This document shows, in pieces, positions 47,901-52,524 of a stretch of 64,000 nt of DNA. Position 1 is the stretch's first letter, and each line of letters begins with the position of its first letter. This DNA is from an uncultured Gammaproteobacteria bacterium. GTDB taxonomy: Bacteria > Pseudomonadota > Gammaproteobacteria > Eutrophobiales > Eutrophobiaceae. The DNA lies in the NCBI GenBank assembly GCA_958295485.1, contig OY282354.1:558001-622000 (forward strand), written 5' to 3'. A program made the translations under genes and the position numbers. Under the pieces are notes generated by a model, which saw nothing but the letters and a program-made list of their open reading frames with translations, made no database searches and had not been told where the DNA came from.

Positions 47901-49569
47901 ACCGGGAGAAGGGGGACAACTGCCGGGACCCAAGGTCTATCCGTGGATTGCCGAGGTCAGGCACTCCACGCCCTGGGTGGGGTTGATCTCGCCGCCGCCG
48001 CACCATGATATTTATTCAATTGAGGACTTGGCCCAGTTAATTCACGATCTCAAGAATTCCAACCCCGAGGCGCGCATCCATGTAAAGTTGGTGGCAGAGG
48101 TCGGCGTCGGCACCGTGGCGGCGGGGGTTTCCAAGGCGCATTCCGATGTTGTCCTTATCTCCGGCTATGATGGCGGCACGGGCGCCTCTCCCGTCAGCTC
48201 CCTGAAGCACGCCGGGTTGCCCTGGGAGTTGGGTCTGGCGGAGACCCAACAGGTCCTGGTGCAAAATAAATTGCGCGACCGCATTGTCGTGCAAACCGAT
48301 GGTCAATTGAAAACCGGCCGGGACGTGGCCATCGCGGCCTTGCTGGGCGCGGAAGAATTCGGCTTCTCCACCGCGCCCCTGGTGGTGAGCGGCTGTATCA
48401 TGATGCGCGTGTGTCATTTGAATACCTGTCCCGTGGGCGTGGCGACCCAGGACAAGCGCCTGCGGGAGAAATTTACCGGCCAGCCGGAGTTTGTCGAGAA
48501 CTTTTTCAGGTATGTCGCCGAGGAGATGCGCGAGTACATGGCGCAGCTTGGTTTCAGGACGGTCGAGGAAATGGTCGGGCGCAGCGATAAACTGGATATG
48601 AACCGCGCGGTGGAACATTGGAAGGCGGCGGGCCTGGATTTCTCGAACATTTTGTATAAACCGGAAATGGGTCCCGAGGTCGGTATTTTCTGTTCGCAGG
48701 AACAAGACCACGGGTTGGAAAAGTCGCTGGACATGACTGAATTGGTACCCCTGTGCAAAGGGGCGTTGGAGCGGCGCGAGCCGGTCGATATCATCTTCCC
48801 CATCAGGAATACCAACCGCACCGTCGGCACTATCCTGGGCTATGAGATTACCAAACGCCATGGCGCCGGCGGGTTGCCGGAAGACACGATAAGCATCCAT
48901 TTCAACGGTTCCGCCGGGATGAGTTTCGGCGCTTTCGTCCCGAAAGGCGTGACCATGACCCTGGAAGGCGATTCAAACGATTACCTGGGCAAGGGTTTAT
49001 CCGGCGGCAAGATTATCGTCTATCCGCCGCGGGCATCGACGTTCGTGCCCGAGGAAAATATCCTGATCGGCAACGTGGCGTTATATGGCGCTACCGGCGG
49101 CGAGGGTTATTTCAGGGGCATAGCCGGTGAACGGTTTTGTGTAAGGAACAGCGGGGTGCACGCCGTGGTGGAAGGCGTGGGGGATCACGGTTGTGAATAT
49201 ATGACCGGCGGTCGGGTCGTCATCATCGGCAAGACCGGCAGAAACTTTGCGGCGGGCATGTCCGGCGGCATTGCCTATGTGTTGGATGAGAATGAAGATT
49301 TTCACATTCGTTGCAATCGGCAGATGGTCAACCTCGAGGCCATTGAGGAGCAGGAAGACATCAATACAATCCGGCGTCTTTTGACAAAACACGTCCAATA
49401 CACCCAGAGTAGCGTCGCGCAGAATATCCTGCATAATTGGTCGGCTTACCGAAAAAGATTTGTCAAGGTGATGCCCAGGGATTACAAGATCGTGCTGGAC
49501 GCCATCAGGAAAGGGCGTGAGAAAGGGCTATCGGAAGAGGAGGCCATCATGGAAGCGGCCCATGGGTAA
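44989..49569 (+). CDS. gltB: Glutamate synthase (NADPH) large subunit
   Basis: 1526 residues, the usual size. The short propeptide ends before Cys27 (HDSCGVGF), the N-terminal nucleophile of the glutaminase domain; the FMN/2-oxoglutarate domain follows ([30 protein letters not shown]), with the 3Fe-4S cysteines in [19 protein letters not shown], and the C-terminal GXGXG beta-helix domain ([20 protein letters not shown]). Converts glutamine plus 2-oxoglutarate to two glutamates. The stop overlaps gltD by eight bases. Confidence 0.98.
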
Positions 49570-51007
49570 GATTACCGGCTATATCGAGTTCGGACGGGAA
49601 AAACAACCGTATCGTCCGGTTGCGGAAAGACTCAATGATTGGCGGCAGGTCATGGCGCCCTGGCCGGTTGAACCCTTGAAGACCCAGGCCTCCCGCTGCA
49701 TGGACTGTGGCATTCCTTTTTGTCACCAGGGTTGTCCGTTGGGAAACCTGATCCCGGACTGGAATGATCTCGTCTACCGGGACCAATGGCTGGAGGCCAT
49801 TCATCGCCTGCACGCCACGAATAATTTTCCTGAGTTTACCGGCGCCCTGTGCCCGGCCCCGTGCGAAGGCTCTTGTGTATTAGGCATCAATGATGACCCC
49901 GTTACCATTAAAGCGGTGGAACTTTCAATTATCGACAAGGCCTGGGAAAACGGCTGGATTAAACCGCAGCCGGCTGGGAAAAAGACTGGTAAGCGGACCG
50001 CCGTCGTCGGTTCCGGTCCGGCGGGCCTGGCTGGGGCGCAACAACTGGCGCGGGCCGGCCATGAGGTAACGCTGTTTGAGCGGAGCGACCGTATCGGTGG
50101 TTTACTGCGCTATGGCATACCGGAATTCAAGATGGAAAAGAGGGTGTTGGACCGGCGTCTCGACCAGATGGAACTGGAGGGCGTGATCTTCAAACCCGGC
50201 TGCAATATCGGCGTGGACGTTGACGCCGGTGATTTATGCAAGGAATATGATGCGGTTTTATTATCCGGTGGCGCGACGGTGTCGCGGGACTTGCCGGTTC
50301 CCGGGCGTGAGTTGACCGGGATCCATCTCGCCATGGACTTCCTGCCGTTGCAAAATAAGCGTTGCGAAGGTGATGAGATCCCTGCCGGTGAATTCATCAG
50401 CGCCGGGGGAAAACACGTCATTATCATCGGCGGCGGCGATACCGGCGCTGATTGTCTGGGCACGGTTAATCGGCAGGGCGCCAAGTCGGTTCACCAGTTG
50501 GAAATCATGCCCAAACCCCCGAATTCCCGCGCTGAGGATAATCCGTGGCCCGAGTGGCCGCGGATTTACCGGGTCGCCTCGGCCCATGAGGAAGGCGTTG
50601 AACGGGTATATGCGGTTTCCACGAAAAAATTCATCGGCAATGAACAAGGTCAGGTGCAGGCGTTGGAGCTGGTCGAGGTGGAAATGAAAAATACCGGTGG
50701 CCGGCTGACTTTCGAGGAGATACCGGGTACTGACTACCAGTTACCCTGTGACCTGGCTTTGCTGGCAATGGGTTTCCTGGGTCCGGAAAAGGCGGGTATG
50801 CTGGAACAATTAGGCATCGAGTTGACCGAAAGGGGCAACGTGAAAAGGGACGGGAACTGGATGACGAACGTGGCGGGCGTTTTTACCGCCGGGGACATGC
50901 AGCGGGGCCAGTCTCTTATCGTTTGGGCGATTGCCGAAGGCCGCTCGGCCGCGCGGGCAATGGATAAATTCCTGATGGGGGCATCCGACCTGCCTGCTCC
51001 GCTTTAA
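49562..51007 (+). CDS. gltD: Glutamate synthase (NADPH) small subunit
   Basis: 481 residues from ATG 49562 ([20 protein letters not shown]), which overlaps the gltB end. N-terminal cysteines for two 4Fe-4S clusters ([30 protein letters not shown]), an FAD site ([20 protein letters not shown]) and an NADPH site ([13 protein letters not shown]). Passes electrons from NADPH to GltB. Confidence 0.97.
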
Positions 51008-51019
51008 CCCGCATCTCTT

Positions 51020-51560
51020 GCCAAAGGGAGCGGAAGATCCGGGAGAAATGGCGAATATCGTGCTGTCGACCGAGAGGGTTTGGGGGCTGTTTTTCCGTTC
51101 CGCGCGAAGTCACTCCAAAACAGCCCCCAAACCCTCTCTTGGCTTGGTCAGCTTTGCGAGTATGGTCTTGTTCTGAGGGGCGGCGGGGCAAACGCATGCT
51201 TTTTTGGGGAGCGGGGAATCCGGGGGAAATGGCGAGTATGGTGCTGTCGACCGAGAGGAGTTGGGGGCTGTTTTTCCGTTCCGCGCGAAGTCTCTCCAAA
51301 ACAGCCCCCAACTCCTCTCTTGGCATGGTCGGCTTTGCGGGTATGGTCTTGCCCTGATGGGCGGCGGGGCGAACGCATACTTTTTTGGGGAGCGGGGGGT
51401 CCGGGAGAAATGGCGAGTATTGTGCTATCGACCGAGAGGAGTTGGGGGCTGTTTTTCCGTTCCGCGCGAAGTCACTCCAAAACAGCCCCCAACTCCTCTC
51501 TTGGCATGGTCGGCTTTGCGGGTATGATCTTGTTCTGGGGGGCGGTTAAAAGGATTATGT
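51020..51560 (+). repeat. Three tandem 181-bp repeats, each with a long hairpin
   Basis: Hairpin arms at 51072-51093/51117-51138, 51253-51274/51298-51319 and 51434-51455/51479-51500: 22 bp, perfect in all three, with a 23-base loop (CCGTTCCGCGCGAAG core). Spacing is exactly 181. Unit 1 differs from the others at two adjacent stem positions, and both changes are matched on the other arm. The frames running through the units are most likely not genes. No T run follows the hairpins. Confidence 0.85.
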
Positions 51561-51591
51561 CGGCGGGTTTATTTTCCGTATAATTTTCAGT

Positions 51592-52524
51592 ATGTCCGGA
51601 TCCATCCAATCTGAAAATATGACTGCCGCCATGGTGTTAATCCAAAGCAAGGTGCCTGAGCAGGCAATGACGGCAGGCATCCTTGGCGCCGAACGCGCGG
51701 GTCACGGCATTCGCATCCGTCAGGACGGTTTGATCGCCACAGTGGGTTATCTCGTGCTTGAAGCGGAACAGATTTGGGTAATATCCCATAACGGCCAGGG
51801 CGCGCCTGCCTATATTGTCGCCCAGGATTATGATTCCGGCATCACTTTGTTAAAACCGACGATTCCGCTGGGGGATACTCATGTAATTCCCGGTTCAATA
51901 AAAGAATTGTCCGTGGGCGAGTCGCTGGTTATTTATCGAAGCGGTTATAGTGACTTGTTTCCTTGCCAGTTGTTTGCCAAGCAGGAATTCGCCGGTCGCT
52001 GGGAGTATTTGCTTGATGAGGCCTTGTTTACCTCCCCTGGTTGCAATGACTGGGCCGGCGCGGCGTTGCTCAATCAATACGGACAGGTTTGTGGGGTGGG
52101 TTCCTTGTTGATGGAAATACCACACGGGGACGATGAAGAAATATTGGGCAACATGTTTATTCCCATGGACTTGGTTACGCCTTTTCTCGATGAGATGTGC
52201 AAGTACGGCCGGCGCAGGACACCGCCTAAGCCCTGGCTGGGGATCCTGGTGCAGGAATACGAAGGGAAACTTGTGGTAGTGGGCGTGTATCCCGAATGTC
52301 CCGCTGGTCTTGCGGGGGTGAAACCGGGCGACATCGTGTTGTCCGTGGATGATGAGCCTGTATACAATCTTTCAGGCATGTTCCGCAAGGTATGGAGTCT
52401 TGGCAGCGCCGGGGTGGAGGTCCCGCTACTCTTGTCTGATGCCGGCAATCTGCGCGATTGTCGGCTTAAATCAATTGACCGCGCTATTTTTTACCAGCCC
52501 GCCTCAGCGGATTCCGTCAACTGA
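51592..52524 (+). CDS. HtrA/S1C-like PDZ protein without recognisable catalytic residues
   Basis: 310 residues: a trypsin-like fold of the HtrA type (DGLIATVGYLVLEAEQIWVI, AQDYDSGITLLKPTIPL, LGNMFIPMDLVTPFL) and a C-terminal PDZ domain (PWLGILVQEYEGKLVVVGVY, AGVKPGDIVLSVDDEPVYNL). The catalytic His position reads TVGYLV instead of TNxHV, and the nucleophile region reads CNDWAGAAL instead of GNSGG, so it is probably not a protease. No signal peptide is visible, so it may be cytoplasmic. TATAAT at 51579-51584 lies seven bases before the ATG with no Shine-Dalgarno, suggesting a leaderless transcript. A scaffold or binding role is possible. Confidence 0.75.
   Translation: MSGSIQSENMTAAMVLIQSKVPEQAMTAGILGAERAGHGIRIRQDGLIATVGYLVLEAEQIWVISHNGQGAPAYIVAQDYDSGITLLKPTIPLGDTHVIPGSIKELSVGESLVIYRSGYSDLFPCQLFAKQEFAGRWEYLLDEALFTSPGCNDWAGAALLNQYGQVCGVGSLLMEIPHGDDEEILGNMFIPMDLVTPFLDEMCKYGRRRTPPKPWLGILVQEYEGKLVVVGVYPECPAGLAGVKPGDIVLSVDDEPVYNLSGMFRKVWSLGSAGVEVPLLLSDAGNLRDCRLKSIDRAIFYQPASADSVN

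Follow-up and report, generated by a model that had tools for sequence, protein, structure and literature searches.

Correia elements of Neisseria carry sigma-70-like outward promoters, contribute hairpins to transcripts and have been reported to undergo inversion (PMC10969869). A structured RNA motif, TwoAYGGAY, has been proposed to be a CsrA-binding RNA (PMC4333381). As a mutational process, template switching homogenises the arms of inverted repeats and inverts their spacers (PMC8604942), and it can generate compensatory changes in hairpins (PMC8794818).

Here, we analysed a hairpin array in a 64-kb stretch of gammaproteobacterial DNA (hereafter the window), which, according to the original prediction, could be either a palindromic mobile repeat or a set of small RNAs. 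The evidence came down on the side of a mobile repeat, with dispersed copies, terminal motifs, 9–10 bp duplications and empty sites, and gave the small-RNA option no positive support. We consider it about 80% probable that the array represents tandem copies of a small non-autonomous MITE-type element inserted between gltD and a PDZ protein gene, with their arms matched by conversion at the DNA level.

The array and its insertion site

The features of the locus are as follows (types A and B of the element are described in the next section).

49517–51007, + strand: gltD-like glutamate synthase small subunit, left neighbour
51026–51206, + strand: unit 1, a type-A MITE copy with a degraded left end, plus an 8-bp spacer
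51072–51138, unstranded: hairpin 1 (arms 51072–51093 and 51117–51138), perfect 22-bp stem GAGAGGGTTTGGGGGCTGTTTT, 23-nt loop TCCGTTCCGCGCGAAGTCACTCC
51176–51183, unstranded: 8-bp spacer between units 1 and 2, AGGGGCGG
51207–51387, + strand: unit 2 in the repeat-finder register; the element proper runs from CGGGGCAA (51184) to TTGCCCTG (51356)
51253–51319, unstranded: hairpin 2 (arms 51253–51274 and 51298–51319), perfect 22-bp stem GAGAGGAGTTGGGGGCTGTTTT; the A/T position of the loop is T
51320–51347, + strand: promoter-like TTGGCA-16-TATGGT in unit 2, a consensus match only
51349–51356, unstranded: right terminal motif of unit 2, TTGCCCTG, the inverse of the left end CAGGGCAA
51357–51364, unstranded: 8-bp spacer between units 2 and 3, ATGGGCGG
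51388–51568, + strand: unit 3 in the repeat-finder register; the element proper stops at TTGTTCTG (51537)
51434–51500, unstranded: hairpin 3 (arms 51434–51455 and 51479–51500), stem identical to that of hairpin 2
51501–51528, + strand: promoter-like TTGGCA-16-TATGAT within the right-hand flank of unit 3, directed outward and upstream of the PDZ gene, a consensus match only
51538–51545, unstranded: 8-bp spacer 3′ of unit 3, GGGGGCGG
51592–52524, + strand: trypsin-like/PDZ protein, right neighbour

The distance from the gltD stop codon to the PDZ homology was approximately 30–60 bp in five congeners compared with approximately 580 bp here. The site is thus empty in these congeners, showing that the array is an insertion in the present lineage and that it parts two genes which are nearly adjacent in the congeners. 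A repeat finder resolved the insertion into three 181-nt units, the other two being 90% and 80% identical with unit 1. The three predicted hairpin units were borne out, each containing a perfect 22-bp stem whose arms enclose 23 nt; the predicted extent (51072–51500) located the array correctly but was too short, as the true array spans 51026–51568. The arm sequences likewise confirmed two compensated stem differences, with GAGAGGGTTTGG in unit 1 compared with GAGAGGAGTTGG in units 2 and 3 and the opposite arms altered correspondingly. As an 8-bp spacer also lies 3′ of unit 3, the tandem unit consists of the element plus 8 bp; this spacer, RKGGGCGG, is the array's own and is present behind each of the three copies.

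No other arms of at least 16 nt with 100% complementarity within 120 bp were found elsewhere in the 64-kb window. The array hairpins folded far better than shuffled sequences (z of approximately −6 as RNA on either strand and −6.3 as DNA), and no Rfam family reached its cut-off at the array. A 167-aa ORF spanning the array (51080–51583) was regarded as merely an open frame through the repeats. Two promoter-like matches (units 2 and 3) were directed toward the PDZ gene, compared with 0.2 expected, and any read-through transcript would receive three very stable predicted hairpins from the array. Any such effect on RNA, whether through hairpins in a gltBD–PDZ transcript or through an outward promoter, would follow secondarily from the insertion; Correia elements show effects of a similar kind (PMC10969869).

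Copies, ends and mobility of the family

The search of the 3.74-Mb genome for the loop that the original prediction had proposed revealed 51 occurrences of CCGTTCCGCGCGAAGTC with no more than two mismatches, compared with 0–1 for a reversed-pattern control. A covariance model gave 83 matches, both strands of some palindromes being counted, and together with BLAST searches using unit 1 and a type-B element it identified about 70 hairpin cores plus partial copies, scattered over about 50 loci in either orientation. The AGTT stem form of units 2 and 3 also fills a second array (C1:2467.7–2468.2 kb). Thus the compensated differences in the window are not independent local events, and the AGTT stem of units 2 and 3 was probably inherited. 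Beyond this genome, the loop pattern had no match among 368 other genomes of the class and the family was absent from the GTDB genome contigs, viral contigs, plasmids and phages searched; the covariance model detected distant relatives in two of six congeners. Among the 51 copies the loop and inner stem were nearly invariant while the flanks diverged, suggesting that some factor may recognise the hairpin tip. Two type-A copies (L089 and L090; C1:2472523–2472591 and 2346737–2346804) were both broken in the loop at CTGTTTTTCC, no more than 2 bases apart, as if the hairpins had been cut or deleted at the tip.

Inspection of copies with their flanks showed that the hairpin core is common to two related types of element. 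Type A, which includes the window array, is approximately 173 bp long with CAGGGCAA...TTGCCCTG ends and imperfect terminal inverted repeats, and often occurs in tandem (one to four copies) with spacers of 8–10 bp or with fused ends. Type B is approximately 105–140 bp long, with imperfect terminal inverted repeats CAGNAGTTCCCGC...GCGGGAACTNCTG (CAGNAG...CTNCTG) and a loop that is short in some copies and long in others. Several type-B elements (L128, L135, L137 and L143) are adjoined by another short repeat, with the pattern TTCACACTTCAAACTTCACACTTCGCG.

Both types are flanked by target duplications. For type B, the flanking 9-mers agreed at 7.4 of 9 positions compared with 2.3 for mismatched loci, a value reached in none of 20000 permutations; for type A, the flanking 10-mers agreed at 7.4 of 10 positions compared with 2.9, the minimum attainable p for the five loci used, several element boundaries in the test being set by eye to within one base either way. 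The window array has no clean outer target duplication, owing to the degraded left end of unit 1. The spacers between tandem copies are approximately as long as a target duplication, and the spacer GGGAGAGCTT recurred at several type-A loci, suggesting that dimers moved as units. The family therefore has the attributes of a MITE: many dispersed copies of approximately 105–180 bp, no coding capacity for a transposase, terminal inverted repeats, and target duplications of 9 bp (type B) and 10 bp (type A). From the arrays of one to four copies, which resemble VNTRs, one might infer simple tandem repetition, or inverted repeats arisen by chance, without any mobility; this reading is already refuted by the dispersal of loop copies over about 50 loci, by single copies with target duplications and by the empty congener sites, and we give it next to no weight.

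The element was probably moved in trans by a putative DDE-type transposase, and its tandem copies probably arose when the short duplications at its flanks recombined or allowed slippage. No autonomous partner with matching ends was seen, the domain searches covering PF13808 and PF01797. ISAs1 elements have ends starting with CAGGG and target duplications of 8–10 bp; an ISAs1 transposase was rejected as the parent because PF13808 is absent from the genome. A one-sided type-B copy at 3242.8 kb (L119; G000:C1:3242780–3247200) was rejected as the edge of an autonomous element, since there was no second end; this half-element abuts ATPase and AbiEi/AbiEii-like genes, named from their translations, which possibly mark the boundary of a defence island.

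The genome does contain a single Y1_Tnp (RAYT-like) gene of 285 aa (L061/L091; G000:C1:3150891–3151211), and the repeats, being intergenic hairpins in tandem arrays, could on this basis be REP-like sequences mobilised by a REP-associated tyrosine transposase. However, no family copies lie within about 2 kb of this gene, and the absence of linked copies led us to reject the RAYT as mobiliser. Y1 transposases are not known to produce target duplications of 9–10 bp. REPs measure 20–40 bp (PMC3733652). We therefore regard this explanation as very improbable.

Origin of the matched arms

The covariation across copies, which the original prediction had put forward as a test, was strong: in 50 distinct cores, 11 of the 22 stem pairs were altered on both sides, a number reached by none of 500 shuffles. 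Stem covariation is routinely taken as proof of a functional RNA, and the units might accordingly yield or form part of a hairpin RNA under purifying selection, for example acting as an sRNA or a protein decoy or stabilising an mRNA. The highly stable fold of both strands and the near-invariant loop would suit such an RNA, as would the minus-strand likeness of long-loop relatives to TwoAYGGAY, the proposed CsrA binder (PMC4333381), considered below. However, only 20 of the 51 short-loop copies had a perfect 22-bp stem; the other 31 carried mismatches, so that, of the two things that the original prediction had named as together refuting it (many copies with uncompensated stem changes, and no transcript), the first was indeed found. 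The mismatches were A.C or C.A at stem positions 4, 8, 14, 16, 17 and 19, C.C at positions 10 and 11, G.G at 16 and G.T at 21; positions 20–22 also break where pairing runs out, position 22 being variable, and the tally omits one out-of-register copy.

An A.C mismatch on the plus strand corresponds to G.U in a minus-strand transcript. By hand count, one-sided states were G-U-compatible about equally on either strand, and both kinds were present in the older long-loop set, so neither strand is consistently favoured; C.C and G.G states also persist. Copy pairs with the closest flanks differed at ten one-sided sites compared with one two-sided site, indicating that unpaired intermediates persist. 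These observations all count against a selected RNA, as do the scattered sites in both orientations, the lack of an Rfam family at its cut-off in the window, the absence of two GGA tip hairpins from the window copies, and the target duplications and patchy presence, which suit mobile DNA. Taken together, we consider a structured RNA array unlikely.

Of the two causes proposed in the original prediction, structural selection and conversion between arms, it was the second that the flipped cores and compensated indels supported. Compensated indels were found at 2618k and 2788k. With respect to the outer ends, the core was inverted in type-B copies at 365k, 823k, 911k, 981k, 1357k, 2865k, 274k and 1994k and in type-A copies at 3401k and 3505k, giving about 9–10 copies with flipped loops overall; in the 2747k copy both outer ends were of one type. 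The congener elements were in the standard orientation as judged by eye, hence the flips look derived. Homogenised arms and inverted spacers are the published signature of template switching, and we therefore prefer arm conversion at the DNA level. Judged from these sequence patterns, the compensatory changes appear to be best explained by template switching. Complementarity would be maintained in the DNA by such switching, or by the two arms exchanging strands, with changes and indels copied from arm to arm and the loop sometimes inverted, and the compensatory changes would be chiefly a by-product of palindrome mutagenesis. As strong covariation here accompanies DNA-level signs (compensated indels, strand-neutral uncompensated intermediates and flipped loops), the family provides a natural data set for separating RNA selection from DNA-level causes of covariation.

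Long-loop relatives and comparison with known systems

In the long-loop type-B copies, as in the congener elements (L156–L160 and L164), the loop is conserved and two small hairpins form within it, although the stem sequence of the congener elements is very different from that of the present genome. Here and in two congeners, the tip of the long-loop relatives forks into two hairpins with CANGGATG loops on the minus strand; the best Rfam match of these relatives was TwoAYGGAY (RF01731) at 29–34 bits, below the gathering score of 43. A further congener element (L168; G006:C178:3352–3472) combines a perfect 27-bp unrelated stem with two CATGGATG hairpins (GCCATGGATGGC and GTACATGGATGTA) in the TwoAYGGAY architecture, scoring 32.9 bits. 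In the window region there was no TwoAYGGAY match, and both AYGGAY-loop tip hairpins are absent from the window copies. These copies are therefore derived relatives at best, and we do not class them as TwoAYGGAY members; by sequence, they look like tip-deleted descendants of older long-loop copies. A bacterial small SRP RNA (RF00169, 54.9 bits; L160:1371–1465, minus strand) lies directly beside one congener hairpin element.

TwoAYGGAY matches above threshold were patchy, occurring in 15 of 369 genomes of the class and often several per genome. In seven genomes checked, two TwoAYGGAY loci of the same genome aligned over approximately 165–590 bp, like dispersed repeats. The matches in other Gammaproteobacteria (L169–L198) were multi-copy dispersed repeats, and in several of these genomes two inverted matches lay approximately 150–180 bp apart, edge to edge. 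We tentatively raise the possibility, which we think rather doubtful at present, that in this genus at least the TwoAYGGAY-type RNA motif is a mobile DNA palindrome spreading as a MITE, with 9–10 bp target duplications, a forked tip bearing paired CsrA-like GGA hairpins, and descendants that, like the window array, have lost the tip. If so, its strong covariation would stem largely from arm conversion rather than RNA selection. The family also raises the question of where TwoAYGGAY-like motifs come from.

Compared with TwoAYGGAY itself, the long-loop relatives have the same long stem, junction and two small CANGGATG-capped hairpins and matched over the full model, but they score below the cut-off and the window copies have lost the tip hairpins. 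REP/BIME/REPIN sequences with their RAYTs are likewise arrayed intergenic palindromes, whereas the present elements are longer, have target duplications and are unlinked to the RAYT gene. ISAs1-derived MITEs differ in that the present genome lacks the PF13808 transposase domain. Correia elements (NEMIS) of Neisseria are similar as small, intergenic, non-autonomous MITEs with terminal inverted repeats and many copies; this likeness is one of description. Their ends differ, and in the present family there is a distinct palindrome at the centre and copies are arrayed in tandem with 8–10 bp spacers. Finally, template switching at quasipalindromes and inverted repeats is alike in arm homogenisation, compensated multi-base changes and loop inversion (PMC8604942, PMC8794818), but it is known as a mutational process, whereas here it would have acted across the whole repeat family of one genome.
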